Assembly (NCBI GenBank): GCA_017450695.1
Contig: JAFSTA010000129.1
Coordinates: 1 to 41,029 of the forward strand
Direction of reading: 5' to 3'
DNA from: Kiritimatiellia bacterium
Lineage (GTDB): Bacteria; Verrucomicrobiota; Kiritimatiellia; RFP12; UBA1067
DNA length: 41,029 nt
Made by a program: the position numbers and the translations under genes. Shown here piece after piece: positions 11,512 through 40,829 of this stretch; within the stretch, counting starts at the first letter, position 1; every line of letters begins with the position of its first letter. The notes under the pieces were generated by a model that had not been told where the DNA came from, did not search any database, and worked only from the letters and a program-made list of their open reading frames with translations.

Positions 11512-13096
11512 GCGAGGATTCACTTATACGGTAGTTGCGGTTATGCTTTTCGGTTTCTGCCGAGCCGAACAGGATGACATCATGGCGTCTTTTGAAAAGG
11601 CGTTGGCGGATCCGGATATCGTCGCATGCTGGAATGCCTTCTCGCCGTTATTGGGAAAGGCGAAGGCGGAAGGGTACTTCACCGATGCGCAAAAGTCCAA
11701 CGCGCTCCTGACCTTGGTCGCGGACCGAATCCTGGACAAAAGAATCAGCCCCGAAAATTCACTGAATGACAAGATGCGCTTTCGCGGCATGGAAAGCCTT
11801 ATGCGTGAAATCGTATGTTGTGACTCGATCGCACAGACGAATGTCTATTTCCTCAAGCTCGCGGATTATCTGGCGGGCGAGAAGATGATCTCGACTACCG
11901 ACTGGTGGGAAAAGGTCAAGCTCGCCAGAGAGAAAGATGAAGCCCTGATTGCCGCAGGGGAGATTCAGCCTCCGCCCGTTGTCACAGGAGGTCCATACAC
12001 TCCAAACCTGTCGGCACTCCGACAGGAGTATGACCATATCAGGGACTATAATCAATCGCTCTTCGTGCATCGTAAACGTGTTGCCGCCATCTTTGCCGAG
12101 CGGATGGAACAGTATCTGCGCTCCCTGAACGAAGAAGAAGCGGAGGGGTTCTGCAAGCTGTTCAGCAAACGGGCGGGGCTGACCGAGAAAGAGGAAGATC
12201 GCTTCTTCCCTGAAAGGGCCAAGAAGAAACAGGATGCGCCGCAAACGGGACAAGACCGCGTGGCGCAACAGGATGAGTTTCCCGACATCGGTATTGCCTC
12301 GTTGCCGTTTGATTTCTTAAGGCGGCGTCCCGATGAACCCCTACGGAGAGACGTTGGTAGCAGTGGACGGTATTGTGCGGGAAAAGAAGGCGGGGGGCGG
12401 AATAAACTCCATGCGCGGAACGGACGCTGCGGCGTCGATCAGGATGAGATCATGGAAGCCTTTAAAAAGGGATTGTCCGATCCTGACATTATCATTTGCC
12501 AGATTGATTGCGAGCCCCTTTTTCAAAAAGCGGAGAAAGAAGGTTTCTTTGCCGACACGAATCCGCACGGCGAGCTGTTGTCACTGGTTGCAGGTCGGGT
12601 ACTGGCAAACAGGATCAGTCAAGAAGACTGGAATGCTTGGGAGCGTTTTCACAGCATGGAGTACTTCATGAAGCGGATCGTATGTTTTGATGAGATCGCA
12701 CGGACGAACATCTACTTCCTCAAGCTCGCGGATTATCTGGCGGCTGAAAAAACGATTCCGACTCCCGACAAGGAGAAAGAATGGGAACTCGCCAAGAAGA
12801 AGGATCAGGCTTTGGCGGCTTCCGGGGTGAAAGAACGCCCTGTGGTTATTGTCAACCGCTATGTTCCCCCGAATGAACGCGCATGGTGGCAAAAGTACGG
12901 TCCTATCGAAAATTGGAATATTTGGGCGGGAAAGCATCGGCATGAGGTCGCATGGATCTTTGCTGAACGGCTGGGGCAGTATCTGCGTTCCCTGAAGAAA
13001 GAGGACGCCGAGGCGTTCCGCAAACTCTTCACCGAGCGGGCTAAACTGTCCAAGGAGGAAGAATCGCTTTTCTTCCCGCAGAAAGGAGGAAAATGA
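11507..13096 (+). CDS. Exported protein with two tandem copies of an unknown domain
   Basis: A 529-aa protein. A signal peptide (MRRGFTYTVVAVMLFGFCRA) is followed by domain 1 (about residues 21-250) starting QDDIMASFEKALADPDI. After a linker of about 55 residues, domain 2 (about 310-529) starts QDEIMEAFKKGLSDPDI. Both halves contain a REIVC/KRIVC stretch followed by YFLKLADYLA and end in YLRSL...EEA/EDAEAF. The domain recurs as the single-domain gene at 14876-15604. No known family is recognised; it is all-helical in appearance with conserved Cys. The chosen ATG has AAAGGAAC upstream. The linker looks like a decayed second signal region joined in frame. Adjacency to the chimeric surface protein makes an immunity or accessory role possible but unproven. 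Confidence 0.7.
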   Translation: MRRGFTYTVVAVMLFGFCRAEQDDIMASFEKALADPDIVACWNAFSPLLGKAKAEGYFTDAQKSNALLTLVADRILDKRISPENSLNDKMRFRGMESLMREIVCCDSIAQTNVYFLKLADYLAGEKMISTTDWWEKVKLAREKDEALIAAGEIQPPPVVTGGPYTPNLSALRQEYDHIRDYNQSLFVHRKRVAAIFAERMEQYLRSLNEEEAEGFCKLFSKRAGLTEKEEDRFFPERAKKKQDAPQTGQDRVAQQDEFPDIGIASLPFDFLRRRPDEPLRRDVGSSGRYCAGKEGGGRNKLHARNGRCGVDQDEIMEAFKKGLSDPDIIICQIDCEPLFQKAEKEGFFADTNPHGELLSLVAGRVLANRISQEDWNAWERFHSMEYFMKRIVCFDEIARTNIYFLKLADYLAAEKTIPTPDKEKEWELAKKKDQALAASGVKERPVVIVNRYVPPNERAWWQKYGPIENWNIWAGKHRHEVAWIFAERLGQYLRSLKKEDAEAFRKLFTERAKLSKEEESLFFPQKGGK

Positions 13097-13135
13097 ATAT
13101 GTTTGAAGGCGAGATCTTCCTAAATGGAGAACGAT

Positions 13136-13939
13136 ATGGACCTTAATAGATGCATGTTTGTTTTGATTTCCATGTTGACGCTTGTCATCCCGGTTGTGGG
13201 GTGCCGGGATAACGAGCGTACGTTATCGGAAATCATGACCGGGAAATTCGGAAAACTCCCTGTGGGGACAGAAGAACGCCTCCGCGAGGTTTCGGAAGGT
13301 CAGGAAGATATTTGGAGATTGTTCAGCCGAGTTCCTCCAAACCGGAGAAAAGAATTCATTGCCGCGTTGGCCGTGCGTTTTCGCAAACTGGAATTCGACG
13401 AACGTTCTTATGCCCTCCGCGCAGCCGCCCTGTCGGATTATTTTCGGATCGTTTCCGAATTAACCGACCGGTTCCGATTGACGGAGGATATTCAGGATAC
13501 AGCCTGGCGGTTCAAACTTGACGCACTGGACAGGGTGAACGAGGAAATCCGGCGATGCGAAAACGAACCGCCGGAAGGTGTGTACAGCATGGAGGAAATC
13601 GGTCGCGGTCCGTTCATGACGAAACAGTTGTATCTGGAATCGCTGAAAACCATGCGGTCGGATTTCATTTGGAGGGGGTTTGAGATGAACCCGTTTTCCT
13701 TATACTTCAAATCTCTTCCCGAAAAGGAGAAAGCCGACTGGCAAGGCAGGCTCAAGAAAGTCGCCCGGCGCGAGTTGTACATCTGGGATCCTGACAATCC
13801 AACCGTGGGGAAGCCAACCCTTGTTTCTGGAGGCTGTTTGAAATTCTTCGACGGCACGAACAAATGCGATGAATTTCTTGTTCCGATTAAAGGCGGGACA
13901 ATAAAAATGAGGCGAACAGAGAAATGGAAAAAAGAATGA
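13136..13939 (+). CDS. Hypothetical lipoprotein
   Basis: A 267-aa protein with a lipoprotein signal: a hydrophobic run ending LVIPVVGC, giving Cys23 as the lipidated residue. The remainder is charged and largely helical in appearance, with several RF/WRF and EKEKADW segments and a Lys-rich end. No family is recognised. GGAGA five bases upstream favours the ATG at 13136 over the in-frame ATG at 13124. A 17-codon open frame overlaps the previous stop (ATGA at 13093) and ends just inside this gene; it could couple translation. The stop overlaps a further ATG by four bases. Confidence 0.6.
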   Translation: MDLNRCMFVLISMLTLVIPVVGCRDNERTLSEIMTGKFGKLPVGTEERLREVSEGQEDIWRLFSRVPPNRRKEFIAALAVRFRKLEFDERSYALRAAALSDYFRIVSELTDRFRLTEDIQDTAWRFKLDALDRVNEEIRRCENEPPEGVYSMEEIGRGPFMTKQLYLESLKTMRSDFIWRGFEMNPFSLYFKSLPEKEKADWQGRLKKVARRELYIWDPDNPTVGKPTLVSGGCLKFFDGTNKCDEFLVPIKGGTIKMRRTEKWKKE

Positions 13940-35342: not shown

Positions 35343-35867
35343 CAGCGTTCCTCGATTTTTCGATTTGGGTTCTCACGCAGAGCGCAGAGGGCACAGGGTA
35401 CGCAGAGAAAGTGTCAAAAAATGAGGTTTTTCAAAACACCATGCGCGACTGGAGAGCGGGAGACCATTCACCCGAATGGGAATCGGCGCAAACGAATGGA
35501 ATCCGCCTCCCGATATGCAACATGCGGGGAAAGTCGCGTTTCCTCACCGGCTCATACCGTGAGTACCGTGCATTCCGTGGTTTTCAAATTGTTCAACCTA
35601 GACTCCTCTTTTGGGTTCTCACGCAGAGCCGCTGAGAGCGTAGAGAAAGGTCTGAAAATAGGGGCATTTTGCAGGATCGAGCGAGGTTTGGGAAGAGAAA
35701 AGAAGGGATCGATTCTTCACCAAATGGGTGAAGCGAAAAACCGCCCGGAAAACCATCGCAAACTTGCCGTATCTCCGCACCTCTGCGCCTCTGCGACAGA
35801 TCAAAACCGTTGTCCGGTAAAAGGAACAGAGGAATTTCGGTTGACTTTTTTCCAAGGAGTGTACGTC
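35343..35867. repeat. Gene-free spacer with direct repeats
   Basis: An exact 20-bp repeat, TTTGGGTTCTCACGCAGAGC, lies at 35364-35383 and 35610-35629, each followed by a GCAGAG/GAGAGCG-rich tail and AGAGAAAG. A diverged inverse-type copy with CACCTCTGCGCCTCTGCG lies near 35778. A segment at 35552-35605 resembles 5872-5929. TTCACC-aaat-GGGTGAA near 35717 could form a hairpin. No convincing gene occurs until the ATG at 35868, although the frame before it is open by chance. Confidence 0.65.
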
Positions 35868-38096
35868 ATGCGTATCTGTTTTCTGCCGTTGCTGTTGGTT
35901 CTTTTCGCTTCCTTCGCGTCCCGCGCCGCCGATCTCCGTCCGAACGCGCCACGTTTGCGCGGCGTGATGGTGGCGCCCGTTCCGCGCGAGGCGGATTTCC
36001 GTGACCTCCGCGAGATGGGGGCGTCGCTGATCCGGTACCAGCTGTGCGCGGAAGGTTCGCTTCCGACCAACGCAACCCGCAAGGCCGCGATGGATCACTT
36101 CGACACGTGGCTCGGCAAGCGGCTCGACATCCTCGAAACGCAGATTCTCCCGTGGGCGCGGAAATACAAGCTCCAGGTCGTTGTGGATCTGCATGACGGG
36201 CCGGGCGGACGGATGCCGGACGGAGAGACGCGGTTGTTCCACGATCCCGTGCTGGCGGCGCATCTCGTGCGGACGTGGGGGCGGATCGCCGCCCGGTTCA
36301 AGGGCAACGCCGACATCCTCTACGGCTATGATTTGCTGAACGAGCCGATCCAGCGGAAACCGGCGGCGGCCAACTGCGACTGGCAGACCGTCCAGCGTCG
36401 CTGTAGCGATACCGTGCGTGCGGTCGATCAGGCGACCACGCTGATCTGGGAGGTTGCGGACGGGGATTTGCCGGGCGGATTCGAGGCACTCAAGCCTTCC
36501 GGCGACACGAACACCGTGTATGAAGTGCATGTGTACCAGCCCCACGCTTTCACCCACCAGTTCGTCCTGGCCGGATTGACAAACGCCGTGGATTATCCCG
36601 TGACGGACGCGAACGGCAAGGTGACTTTCGACAAGGAAAACCTGCACCGCCTGTTGAATCCGGTCATGGCCTTTTCGAAACAGGCGCGGTCGCGGATTTA
36701 TGTCGGCGAGTTCTCCGCGATCTCCTGGGCGCCCGGCGAGAGCGCCGCCCGTTACTTGGCGGACTGCATCGCGCTCTTCGAAGAATACGGCTGGGATTGG
36801 ACGTACCACGCCTTCCGCGAGTGGCAGGGATGGAGCGTGGAACACGCGCCAGCTGCCGCCCCCGGAGTCCACAAGTTCATCCGCAGCGACGACAACCCTC
36901 GCAAGCGCGTCCTGCTTGCCGGATTCAAAGGGCAATCCTTCCCCCTCGTTCGCGCCCCGGTTGCCGACACGCGGTTGCGCGAGGCGAGCGACAAAGGATG
37001 GCGGCGCGCGATGGGATTCTGGTACGAAAAGACCGCGCTCGTTTATGACTGTCCCGCCGAGCGTGTCCAGTCCTCCGCGAACAGCACCAACAACCTTTTC
37101 CACTGGCATCCGGGACTTCTGAGCGGGTACGGTGCGGGAATGTCCGATTGCGCGTTGATCTGCGGAACCGCGCTCTCTGGGCTTGCCGACAAATGGTTGG
37201 TCACTCGAGACCCTTCCGCGCGGGAAGATGCCGCCAAGGTCGCGAAAGGCGTGTTGAACCTCGCGAAAGCCCACGGGTACAAGGGATTCGTCGCGCGCGG
37301 GATTTGCGCGGATGACGGGAAGACGGCCTGTTCTCTCTCCTCGCGCGATCAATACACGCACTGGGTACACGGGCTATGGCGCTATGTAACCTCCGGCATG
37401 GCGGAACCGGAACTGGTGAAGGAATACCAACGCCTGGTCGAAGAGGTCGCCTCATTCATGGAACGCCGAATCGTTCCCGAAACGAACTGGAATTTCGGGT
37501 TGGCGGACGGTTCCAAAGACCCGAGAGGAATCTGTACCATGTGGGGACCGGATGTCTGGCCGCACGAGGCCGCGCGCCTGCCGATGATCTATTGCGCCGC
37601 CTATCTGGCGACGCGGCATCCGCATTGGAAGGAAATGTACGAACGGTACATCGACGAGGCGATCGAGCGGACGCTGCAGATCCATAAACTCTCACCGCAG
37701 GAGATCGGCGGACGGATGCCGTGTTACTCCCTCTTCCAGGCCAACACCTCGCTGGAATTGATCCTCGCCTGGGAAAAGGATCCGTCGCGTGTCGCGAAGA
37801 TCCAGGAGGCGATGTCCGCCTTCGCGAAGCTGGCGCACGAACGCGAATCGTCGGCGCTGCGCTACCCGCGGGTGAAACACTACGGGATGTGCTGGGAAGG
37901 GGAGTTGTTGTTGACCCAGCTGATGACCCCCGATTGGCCGTTCACGGCGGACGAGCGCCAGTTCCTGGAAAATTCGCTCCTCCGCGATCGTCCGGAAATC
38001 GTCGGCGTCTGCCGTATCGCCCACCTGATGACCGCCTACTGGCGCTACCGCCGCCTTCAGCGGATGCAAGGGGAAGTTAAGAAGCGGGAAGGCTGA
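35868..38096 (+). CDS. Two-domain secreted hydrolase, N-terminal GH5-like
   Basis: A 742-aa protein. AAGGAG eight bases upstream and a clear signal peptide (MRICFLPLLLVLFASFASRAA) fix the start well inside a longer open frame. The N-terminal (beta/alpha)8-type domain has GH5/clan-A features: VVVDLHDGPGG, the acid/base Glu159 in YDLLNEPI, VYEVHVYQPHAF, and the probable nucleophile Glu281 in RIYVGEFSAI. The C-terminal region (about residues 370-735) is all-helical with Trp- and Cys-containing segments (LFHWHPGLLSGYG, TNWNFGLADG, MCWEGELLLTQL), like an alpha/alpha-toroid glycan enzyme. It may be bifunctional. The last codons and stop merge with an intergenic repeat. Confidence 0.8.
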   Translation: MRICFLPLLLVLFASFASRAADLRPNAPRLRGVMVAPVPREADFRDLREMGASLIRYQLCAEGSLPTNATRKAAMDHFDTWLGKRLDILETQILPWARKYKLQVVVDLHDGPGGRMPDGETRLFHDPVLAAHLVRTWGRIAARFKGNADILYGYDLLNEPIQRKPAAANCDWQTVQRRCSDTVRAVDQATTLIWEVADGDLPGGFEALKPSGDTNTVYEVHVYQPHAFTHQFVLAGLTNAVDYPVTDANGKVTFDKENLHRLLNPVMAFSKQARSRIYVGEFSAISWAPGESAARYLADCIALFEEYGWDWTYHAFREWQGWSVEHAPAAAPGVHKFIRSDDNPRKRVLLAGFKGQSFPLVRAPVADTRLREASDKGWRRAMGFWYEKTALVYDCPAERVQSSANSTNNLFHWHPGLLSGYGAGMSDCALICGTALSGLADKWLVTRDPSAREDAAKVAKGVLNLAKAHGYKGFVARGICADDGKTACSLSSRDQYTHWVHGLWRYVTSGMAEPELVKEYQRLVEEVASFMERRIVPETNWNFGLADGSKDPRGICTMWGPDVWPHEAARLPMIYCAAYLATRHPHWKEMYERYIDEAIERTLQIHKLSPQEIGGRMPCYSLFQANTSLELILAWEKDPSRVAKIQEAMSAFAKLAHERESSALRYPRVKHYGMCWEGELLLTQLMTPDWPFTADERQFLENSLLRDRPEIVGVCRIAHLMTAYWRYRRLQRMQGEVKKREG

Positions 38097-38220
38097 GAAG
38101 CAGATACGTGGCGGCTGCGCCGCCTAAGTGGCCCTACGTGCCTAAATGGTGCTGGCGCCCCTAAGAGGCGCTTTGCGCCAGCTGAGAGGCGGGGAATCTG
38201 AAAGGCTGAGAAGCAACAGT
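38085..38220. repeat. Intergenic modular repeat block
   Basis: The block contains GCTGAGAAGC-type units at both ends, GGCGGC-tgc-GCCGCC (38110-38124), CCTAAGTGG/CCTAAATGG units and GGCGC-ttt-GCGCC (38167-38179) followed by AGCTGAGAGGC. The stop of the upstream hydrolase lies within the first unit. It also forms the 3' end of the minus-strand RHS remnant. Confidence 0.7.
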
Positions 38221-38334: not shown

Positions 38335-38361
38335 TCTACCAGACCTCCCGTATCGCATCAA
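38333..38361 (-). promoter_or_regulatory. Promoter preceding the second RHS remnant
   Basis: On the minus strand, TTGATG (38361-38356) and TAGAAT (38338-38333) are 17 bases apart. The -35 overlaps the stop codon of the HEAT-repeat gene. The arrangement matches that at 28386-28414. Confidence 0.5.
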
Positions 38362-39124
38362 TCCATTTCCGATGGCTGCGCGAGTGCGGCGGAGAGGCGT
38401 TCGTCGGTGTTGGTCGCGGCGAGGACGCGGAGGGCGGCGAGGTCGGACACGGTACCCAGACGGCGGAGCGCGGCGAGGGAGGCGAGGCGCAGGGGGACGG
38501 CGGCGTCGCGGTCATACGCAAGGGTGCGTGCGGTTGGCAGGATGTCGTGGCAGCCCTGTTCGGCGGCAATTTGCACGGCGGTGACGCGGGCGGCGGGATG
38601 GGAGTGGGATGAGGCGGCGACAGCCAACGCGCGGGAACGGAGGAACGCGCGGTCTTCGGCATCCGCGTCCGGCATCCGGGAAAGGGCGATCAGCGCGGTG
38701 CCCGACCACGGGGCGGAGTCCTGTCCGGCGGCCTCGCGCAGACATTCGCGAATGTCCTCCCGCTCCGCGCGGCGGAGAGGTCGTTCCAGCGTCACGCCGA
38801 GGTGCTGCAGGGCGTAGTCGCGGACGGCGGGCGGCTGCGCGGGATCGCGGAACACGGCTACCGTCACGGGAATCAGGTCAGGGTGACAATCGTCTGGTTC
38901 CGCAGGAGATTCCAGACGTCGTTCTTCAGCGCGGCGACGCGCTCCGGGCGCATCGCGCCGTCCGGCGAAAGCAGGTAGTCCAGCAGCGCGTCCGTCTCAT
39001 CCCGCGCGAGGTCCCGCCCCAGCGAGGCCAGCGCCCTCGACCGCAGGGCGTACCGTCCCGCCGTCTCCGGGTCAAGCCCAGCGACGCACCGCACGGCTGC
39101 GGGCGCGTCCGCCTCGCGTCTCAT
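38358..39124 (-). pseudogene. HEAT-repeat protein gene with one-base frameshift
   Basis: The 5' part (39124-38873) encodes 83 aa ending ...KNDVWNLLRNQ then TIVTLT; the 3' part (from about 38893 to 38358) is in another frame and encodes DDCHPDLIPVTVAVF, then RDPAQPPAVRDYALQHLG and Ala/Leu-rich helical HEAT-type repeats (SLAALRRLGTVSDLAALRVLA). Inserting one G at the CAG-ACG junction near 38895 restores a 255-aa protein. The N-terminus lacks a signal peptide and starts next to a repeat block, so it may also be truncated. HEAT repeats usually mediate protein contacts; no function can be assigned. The break may be real or a sequencing error. Confidence 0.6.
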
Positions 39125-39129
39125 GTCCC

Positions 39130-39290
39130 TGCTCGTCTCACGCTGAGAACGGTCGCGTCACGTCGCGTCCGCATTACGTATCCGGCTTCCCCGGCTTGCC
39201 CGGCCTACCCCACTTCTCAGCTTCTCAGCCTCTCAGCTTCTCAGCTTGCCCGGCTTACCCGGCTTAACACGGGGCTAACTTATAGGCATT
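39130..39290. repeat. Intergenic modular repeat block
   Basis: The block contains hairpin GGTCGCG-tcacgt-CGCGTCC (39151-39170, one mismatch), several CCCGGCTT units (39183-39208 and 39246-39270) and CTTCTCAGCTTCTCAGCC-type direct repeats (39213-39245). AACTTATAG near 39274 is related to the leaders at 1439 and 2331. No gene is present here. Confidence 0.7.
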
Positions 39291-39298
39291 GGACGATT

Positions 39299-40711
39299 TT
39301 ACACTTCGCGGAAGAGGTCGTCGAGCGTCACCTCGGACTGTACCATTCCTGCGTTTGCGTTCCGCTTGACACCATACGTCGTCACGAATGTCAAGTGTAC
39401 GGATTTGCGGGTACCGGTTTCGTCCTTGAAGAGCTGCACCCTGTCACGAAGCCTTTTGGCGTAGGCATCGCCTATCGAAAACTCTCCCCGCGTGAACTTC
39501 ATCTCGCATACGTTCACCACGCCGTCGGCGCGGTCGATGAGCATGTCAATCTGTGCACCGTTCGTTTTTGCCGCACTGCGCCACGATGAAATCTCCACCG
39601 ATACGCCCGATATCCCAAGCGCGGCCTTAATAGCGTCCTGGTGCCACATGCAGACCCGCTCGAATGCGATGCCCTCCCATGCGTTACGCAGGGCGGTATC
39701 AACATTCGATAGCCAGAACCCGTTCCTGACGGAAGACATCCCCGCCATGAACTGGAGATGGAAGATGGTGAAGTTGTCCATCAGCTGGTAAACCGTGCCG
39801 CGCTTCTTGCGTCCCGACGGCGCGAATCTCCGTAGGAATCCGCTTTCCTCAAGTTCCTCCAGCACAAGCGTAAGTTTCCCTGTCGCCGGCATTTTCGCCT
39901 TCTGAGAGATTTCTTCGCGAGTAAGCCCCTCCCGGCGGTCGTAAAGAACGGTAATCACCCGAAGGTGCTTTTCGGGGTGCTTGAACACCGATGCGTAGAG
40001 TCGGCGGAACTCCCCCGCGAGCTCGCCTGCGGCGGTAAAACAGAGCCTGTCGATGTTCTGAGCCATCGACAACGACTTGTCAAGAAGGCTCCAGTAGTAC
40101 GGCGAGCCGCCGAACACCATGTAGCCTTCGGCGATCTCGTACCGCGACATCGCGAATCCACTGTCCCTCATATATTCTTCGCACTGGCGCAGCGTAAATG
40201 GCTCAAGGTACAGAACGCGGTTTGCGCGATTGAACAAGCCGCCTTTGTTCCGCAGGACCGTCCTGATCATCCAGCTCGTGGCGCTTCCGCACACGATGAG
40301 TACGATGTCCTTCCTTGCGGCGCACCATCCGTTCCAGAAGTTCTCAAGGGCCCTGACGAACCGCGCACGCGGGGTGTCCATCCACGGTAGCTCGTCGATA
40401 AAGATCACCTTGCGCCCATCGGGACTGGATTTTAAAAGCCTCTTGAGAAGCGAGAATGCCTCGATCCAGTCCTTGGGGCGGTCCACGTCTAGAAGCCCCT
40501 GTTCTGCGAGTGATTCGCGAAAGGCATCAAGCTGCTCGCTCATGGGCGCGCCCTCTATGCCCGTATGGGAAAAGGCGAAAGAGTAGTTGAACGTCTCGCG
40601 GATGAGGTATGTCTTGCCTACACGACGCCTTCCGTACACGACGATGAACCGCGAACGGTCTGCATTAGCCGCATCCATAAGGATTTTCGATTCGACCTGC
40701 CTTCCTATCAT
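39299..40711 (-). CDS. ATPase with C-terminal DUF234 nuclease-like domain
   Basis: A 470-aa protein of the archaeal-type ATPase_2/DUF234 class. Walker A is GRRRVGKTYL (about residues 27-36), Walker B VIFIDELPWM, sensor-like VCGSATSW, and GYMVFGGSPYYW is typical of the class. A winged-helix-like segment (EGLTREEISQKAKMPATGKL) follows. The C-terminal domain has a PD-(D/E)xK-type pattern, QIDMLIDRADGVVNVCEMKF. The biological role of this widespread class is poorly known; it has been linked to mobile or defence contexts. The ATG is supported by AAGGAGA five bases upstream. It has a strong promoter overlapped by an operator-like half-site. Confidence 0.88.
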   Translation of the reverse strand: MIGRQVESKILMDAANADRSRFIVVYGRRRVGKTYLIRETFNYSFAFSHTGIEGAPMSEQLDAFRESLAEQGLLDVDRPKDWIEAFSLLKRLLKSSPDGRKVIFIDELPWMDTPRARFVRALENFWNGWCAARKDIVLIVCGSATSWMIRTVLRNKGGLFNRANRVLYLEPFTLRQCEEYMRDSGFAMSRYEIAEGYMVFGGSPYYWSLLDKSLSMAQNIDRLCFTAAGELAGEFRRLYASVFKHPEKHLRVITVLYDRREGLTREEISQKAKMPATGKLTLVLEELEESGFLRRFAPSGRKKRGTVYQLMDNFTIFHLQFMAGMSSVRNGFWLSNVDTALRNAWEGIAFERVCMWHQDAIKAALGISGVSVEISSWRSAAKTNGAQIDMLIDRADGVVNVCEMKFTRGEFSIGDAYAKRLRDRVQLFKDETGTRKSVHLTFVTTYGVKRNANAGMVQSEVTLDDLFREV

Positions 40712-40743
40712 TGCAATCTCCTTTTAACCCAAAAACGGACTAT

Positions 40744-40772
40744 ATGATACCCAAATCATCCGATAAAGTCAA
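40744..40772 (-). promoter_or_regulatory. Strong promoter of the ATPase-DUF234 gene
   Basis: On the minus strand, TTGACT (40772-40767) and TATCAT (40749-40744) are 17 bases apart. Transcription would begin near 40737, giving a leader of about 26 bases with the ribosome binding site at 40717-40725. Confidence 0.75.
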
Positions 40773-40829
40773 GTTATATATTATAATTGGACTTTATCTA
40801 TGCGATTTTATGAGATAAAGTCCAATTAT
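40761..40829. promoter_or_regulatory. Operator-like inverted repeat and third half-site
   Basis: ATAATTGGACTTTATCT (40783-40799) and AGATAAAGTCCAATTAT (40813-40829) form a perfect 17-bp inverted repeat around 13 bases. A third related half-site, GATAAAGTCAAGTTAT (40762-40777), contains the -35 element of the ATPase promoter. A protein bound to it would block RNA polymerase, so repression, perhaps autoregulation, is inferred. The inverted repeat lies upstream, where it could also form a cruciform or mark an outward terminator. Confidence 0.65.

Follow-up and report, generated by a model that had tools for sequence, protein, structure and literature searches.

The window analysed here, a 41,029-bp stretch of a Kiritimatiellia bacterium (contig JAFSTA010000129.1), contained on the minus strand at 39299–40711 a gene encoding a 470-aa protein. 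The protein matched Pfam ATPase_2 at 49.2 bits (cut-off 33.2) and PADLOC PDC-S27, with profile PDLC04984 covered over its full length (E 1e-192, protein residues 1–467 on profile positions 4–473 of 474); a PHROGs search returned no family. The AlphaFold model (pLDDT 91.3) showed an ATPase followed by a winged helix and, at the C-terminus, an alpha/beta domain. Based on this model and on sequence motifs, the protein is predicted to be a single chain joining a STAND-like AAA+ ATPase part (residues 1–240; 39992–40711, minus strand), with Walker A GRRRVGKT and Walker B FIDELPW, to a winged helix-turn-helix (residues 247–310; 39782–39973, minus) and a PD-(D/E)XK nuclease domain (residues 340–444; 39380–39694, minus). 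An earlier note on this DNA had pointed to a winged-helix-like region in the ATPase, and the model placed it at residues 247–310, comprising elements at 247–259 and 265–272, a recognition helix at 278–289 and wing strands at 293–296 and 307–310. The segment 39845–39886 (minus) encodes this recognition helix together with residue 276, which stands at its start. Among 190 homologues, the putative catalytic residue E351 was present in all, and D389, E403 and K405 in 189 each (1 gap), with the Walker A and B residues likewise conserved. The C-terminal domain, when folded alone, resembled EndoMS (Z 8.1, 107 aligned, 3.0 Å), AF1548 and other nucleases. The best structural matches of the ATPase and winged helix were two archaeal ATPase_2 proteins, PABY2304 (2qen; Z 20.2, 302 aligned, 3.3 Å) and SSO1545 (2fna; Z 19.9, 292 aligned, 3.0 Å), followed by CED-4/NLR proteins and Cdc6/Orc1. 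The alignment with 2fna and 2qen stopped at residue 320–321, leaving the C-terminal nuclease outside the match.

A ribosome-binding-site-like AGGAG (40718–40722, minus) lay 6 nt ahead of the start codon, and upstream of it was a sigma-70-like promoter (40744–40772, minus) with a -35 box TTGACT (40772–40767), a -10 box TATCAT (40749–40744) and a 17-nt spacer, matching the consensus at 10 of 12 positions. Further upstream, a perfect 17-nt inverted repeat (40783–40829) had arms at 40783–40799 and 40813–40829 separated by 13 nt, and scored 17 compared with a shuffle 99% point of 12.0. The 41-kb window had three exact copies of the 9-mer GATAAAGTC, at 40762–40770, 40790–40798 and 40814–40822, and thus none outside the ATPase upstream region. 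Two of these copies lay in the repeat arms, as exact copies of each other: half-site 1 (GGACTTTATC, forward, 40814–40823, minus strand) and half-site 2 (GGACTTTATC, reverse relative to the gene, 40789–40798, plus strand). The remaining exact copy, half-site 3 (TGACTTTATC, forward, 40762–40771, minus), coincided with the -35 box. The perfect repeat and the half-site on the -35 box, both described in the earlier note, are therefore real, and the repeat scores above the shuffle 99% point; its count of three half-sites was correct as far as it went, yet the array is larger, because a fourth, GGACTATATG (reverse, 40737–40746, plus; 8 of 10 letters matching), over the -10 box had been missed. In the 9-mer register, the fourth half-site lay 26 bp past the third; relative to the start codon, the forward sites stood at -112 and -60 and the reverse sites at -86 and -34, so that orientation alternated at spacings of 26, 26 and 26. 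Half-sites 3 and 4 overlapped the predicted -35 and -10, respectively, an arrangement of operators over the gene's own promoter.

Homologues were recovered mainly from rumen and gut bacteria, including Kiritimatiellae, Bacteroidales, Treponema and others (80 loci from one scan). Among 161 genomes of the order, 42 had matches at E<=1e-125; at E<=1e-20, matches were present in 25 of 60 genomes of relatives, with a maximum of 27 per genome (genome G050). In the first scan of 81 upstream regions, the best inverted repeat exceeded the shuffle 95% point in 72 and the 99% point in 46, and in the set used for geometry (133 non-redundant among 158 upstreams) it exceeded the 99% point in 100. Repeat scores above 11 were found in 125 of 170 ATPase upstreams; at the same loci, this value was exceeded in 22 of 241 regions ahead of other ORFs and in 8 of 213 far flanks. 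Neighbouring symmetry centres in the 133 upstreams were 26 bp apart 43 times and 27 bp apart 30 times, against 1.6 and 0.6 times per shuffled set, with lesser peaks at 31–32 and 36 bp. Two duplicates (L097 and L098, of L001 and L002) were removed from every count, and the covariation and control sets also excluded short, cut or distant loci (L002, L011–L014, L114–L116 and L122).

Arrays could be confidently placed in 90 of 147 non-redundant homologues. The other 57, with an array score <27, were left out of the half-site alignment, so the covariation described below covers clear-array loci only. The 90 genes had 199 matches to their own half-sites in the 200-bp upstreams (11.06/kb), compared with 0.08/kb inside the gene, 4 matches in 15,724 bp downstream (0.25/kb) and none in 20,981 bp further upstream. 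The direct-repeat period among 88 placed arrays was 51–54 bp in 42, 62–64 bp in 26 and 72–74 bp in 9. Comparing the spacings of L143 (25/38/25) and L109 (23/49/23) with those of L124 (25/27/25), the forward–reverse distance stayed constant while the reverse–forward distance grew by about 1–2 turns, which suggests that a rigid pair is the unit and that units are helically phased, although the Rayleigh curve for this phasing was broad (R 0.71–0.76 over periods 9.5–10.75). TTG[AC] occurred 32 times among 68 second forward sites and 8 times among 68 first ones, indicating that half-site 3 doubles as the -35 box. Among eight further homologues, the layout was found before those on plasmids or phages of Butyrivibrio, Emticicia, Malaciobacter (24/27/24) and Phocaeicola and before that of Wolbachia phage WO (27/29/27), while arrays were absent or weak before those of Segatella, Desulfosarcina and the archaeon Halorientalis (L258, L261 and L264); some clear orthologues, L023–L025 among them, also had no array. 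The Wolbachia phage WO homologue (L262, MN180249.1) was located among head and portal genes, was preceded by an alternating array and is annotated as an archaeal ATPase fused to DUF234. The description of these sites as operator-like in the earlier note thus gains comparative support from the geometry conserved upstream of homologues. The search it had proposed for GATAAAGTC-type sites before homologues would have been misleading: spacing and orientation were mostly retained, but the letters varied by paralogue, so a literal search for the half-site is uninformative.

The genome from which the window comes (5.0 Mb, 287 contigs) contained 16 matches to the protein. By inspection, 11 of these were preceded by an inverted repeat whose arms were perfect over 10 nt or more, in differing letters (e.g., GTCTTGAAATTT, GGGCGTGAAATT, and TTAGGTGAACCA). 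The pair GACTTTATC-N10..20-GATAAAGTC occurred at only two places in this genome, in the window and before the paralogue L002, and a reversed control pair at none. L002 encodes a truncated protein of 189 aa that starts at the winged helix; the shared part was 49% identical to the window protein and the recognition region almost identical (PATGRLT versus PATGKLT). This locus (G000:C204, ~12630–13260) had no ATPase domain, and retained the winged helix, a partial nuclease and three GACTTTATC sites; it could be either a pseudogene or a free repressor of the window gene. In other genomes, the site pair of L124 was found once in its own genome, and the 11 placed arrays of G050 each had different words. 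In genome G048, the word of L143 also matched L099 twice, so operator privacy is not absolute. The best reading of these sequences is that operator specificity would be private to each paralogue, with a layout common to many relatives.

For covariation analysis, the half-sites of the 90 clear arrays were brought into a common register on the basis of symmetry centres; an initial run on 47 loci had placed helix residues near the top with much noise, and was redone with 90. In the resulting half-site consensus a C and an A were nearly invariant, and the bases flanking the C varied freely. With overall identity regressed out, residue 276 was the best protein column in 3 of 3 pair sets, and it ranked 1 of 404 protein columns for half-site column 10, the base after the C; the Z values of this covariation are inflated, because the loci share ancestry and it is the alignment that sets the register. 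Asparagine at residue 276 was accompanied by T (17 of 24), serine by A (15 of 23), and leucine and aspartate by G (6 of 7 and 8 of 13, respectively). Among pairs of proteins at 42–62% identity, the base was in common in 238 of 480 pairs with the same residue 276, and in 449 of 2280 otherwise. When the half-sites were aligned without protein data, residue 276 ranked 1, 1 and 2 over three stringencies, each of which put wing residue 296 at rank 1 for column 8, the base before the C. Residues 39, 41, 160 and 213, outside the helix, also scored high, half-site columns 7, 9 and 13 did not clearly point to the helix, and the letter assigned to proline at residue 276 depended on placement method, being T in one and A in the protein-free alignment. 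Overall, the covariation is strong circumstantial support for the predicted reading of the sites by the protein's own winged helix, and it is very probably the ATPase's own DNA-binding domain that reads the four half-sites.

Operator and gene were also inherited together. Between copies with at least 75% DNA identity in unrelated surroundings, the left end of homology had a median of -89 (97 of 112 within -30 to -200) and the right end one of +1 nt beyond the stop codon (75 of 85 within -30 to +40), the pairs compared not being independent of one another. By these boundaries, operator and gene behave as a single-gene cassette. No separate partner gene, as in toxin–antitoxin or restriction–controller systems, travelled along with these copies, whose homology stopped at the stop codon. 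Half-sites were nearly absent downstream of the 90 loci, leaving no matching sites at both ends of the kind expected of a mobile element. Searches for empty sites of two cassettes gave partial flank matches and no clean empty site. In one genome (G028:C25, ~35669–36623; L300/L287), a solo array retained four half-sites and the start codon, with the gene body deleted to ~45 nt past the stop. This locus was considered as an empty site and rejected, being a gene deletion with the array retained.

The interpretation that we favor, with a probability of about 0.85, is that the window gene encodes an autorepressed ATPase-nuclease with paralogue-specific operators. The winged helix would bind the four alternating half-sites over its own promoter and the protein would thereby repress itself, as the earlier note had proposed; comparative support for this proposal comes from the conserved geometry, the covariation between helix and letters, and the joint inheritance of operator and gene. 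As to binding, repression as its sign, cooperativity and stoichiometry, we infer that a pair of protomers on one forward–reverse pair of half-sites (~26 bp apart) would form one unit, and that two units facing the same side of the helix, 5, 6, or 7 turns apart (period ~52, 63, or 73 bp), would cooperate, the proximal unit covering -35 and -10. Recognition-helix residues and half-site letters would have been altered together in each paralogue, which would allow dozens of copies per genome with little cross-talk, and operator and gene would move as a unit. Costly or toxic expression is plausible given the intact nuclease motifs, and an intact nuclease would explain such tight control. A single-gene defence role is suspected from the naming of the family as candidate PDC-S27.

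It is unlikely that the sites instead serve another regulator, whether host-encoded or neighbouring, with the ATPase uninvolved. Unlinked factors with palindromic operators are common, and other defence loci have separate repressors, such as RptR in the part of PMC12255303 consulted; however, the letters differ among the paralogues of a single genome (11 arrays in G050), which would call for one factor per paralogue. They also covary with the recognition helix of the ATPase itself, and no partner gene is shared, because homology ends at the stop codon. Slightly less probable still is that the array serves as a mobile element's binding end or as a cleavage target of the nuclease rather than as a transcriptional operator, as might be imagined from the sharp edges of the single-gene cassettes, their numbers in G050 (up to 27 matches at E<=1e-20), the make-up of ATPase, PD-(D/E)XK and winged helix, and the copies on plasmids and in Wolbachia phage. 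Against this, the half-sites were one-ended (11.06/kb upstream versus 0.25/kb downstream), half-sites 3 and 4 agree in position with the -35 and -10 boxes, and neither of the two cassettes searched gave a clean empty site. The 17-nt perfect arms would also be able to fold, yet an RNA or single-strand DNA hairpin (attenuator or terminator) is very improbable: half-sites 1 and 2 are upstream of the -35 box and hence would not be transcribed from the predicted promoter, a spacing rule over many half-sites suits double-strand binding, and the letters covary with a protein residue.

Building on the autorepression model, a more speculative and rather doubtful extension is that each operator–gene cassette forms an 'immunity group' of its own. 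Incoming cassettes with the same operator would be silenced by a resident copy, and a cassette entering a cell without a matching repressor would be derepressed, unleashing its nuclease. Selection against overlap between groups would then drive the joint divergence of helix and operator, explaining dozens of mutually orthogonal copies, and the solo array of G028:C25 and the helix-keeping truncated L002 would be decoys or immunity remnants. The co-divergence, cassette mobility, solo array and truncated paralogue are consistent with such groups.

Cdc6/Orc1 initiators likewise have an AAA+ domain followed by a winged helix, and matched the window protein at Z 14.8 (2qby; 301 aligned, 6.2 Å) and Z 14.4 (1w5t; 302 aligned, 4.3 Å). 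In archaea, Cdc6/Orc1 binds origin boxes that form ordered arrays. These proteins are replication initiators, whereas the sites in the window were at the gene's own promoter, with no sign of a replication role. Toxin–antitoxin systems, restriction controller (C) proteins and phage repressors exert self-repression via arrays of half-sites, with specificity differing among relatives. In those systems the antitoxin, controller or repressor is a separate protein, whereas repressor and nuclease would here be one polypeptide. According to the part of PMC12255303 consulted, RptR represses the promoter of a type I restriction-modification defence island via repeated sites; it is a small stand-alone regulator with a single conserved site of 6 bp, whereas here the effector itself is the proposed repressor, with private sites. 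IniR, a mycobacterial signal-transduction AAA+ ATPase, is described in the consulted part of PMC5760070 as a promoter-binding regulator with a predicted SSO1545-like structure; unlike the window protein it has no nuclease, and it has a MalT-like sensor domain and activates another operon.

The window protein has the domain make-up given for PDC-S27, an ATPase fused to PD-(D/E)XK, in PMC12988326, the consulted portion of which makes no mention of 'operator', 'inverted repeat' or 'autoregul'. No description of such operators was found in the literature searched, which included parts of PMC1913061, PMC12988326, PMC13356809, PMC11834463, PMC5760070 and PMC12255303, most subscription papers being outside its scope. 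As far as searched, the operator arrays and winged-helix code are thus new for PDC-S27. This family is among the commonest single-gene defence candidates, with counts of 3503 in archaeal genomes and 4562 in bacterial ones in the portion of PMC12988326 consulted, which also states that validation is pending for most PDCs, and of 2865 in rumen MAGs in that of PMC13356809. If the autorepression model is true, these would be self-contained genes with effector and repressor in one chain, and the promoter and induction at infection time would give an immediate experimental handle on PDC-S27. It would also offer a protein–DNA code readable across the many variants found in nature, together with a collection of mutually orthogonal repressor–operator pairs.

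Other repeats were seen in the same genome and window. ATPases with DUF4143 (PDC-S01-like) had 47 matches in the genome; of 30 loci fetched (L227–L256), a start was found for 24, and 12 of these 24 had strong upstream inverted repeats. Symmetry centres were 16 bp apart in some (e.g., L254 and L256), a spacing that also occurred among the 241 control ORFs, and DUF4143 is perhaps a second family with private operators. In the window, two adjoining minus-strand ORFs at 38358–39124, one with HEAT repeats (PF13646), look like one gene split by a frameshift. Short tandem CTTCTCAGC-type repeats at 39185–39265 and 38070–38215, the inverted counterpart being ~1 kb off, flanked these HEAT-repeat ORFs.
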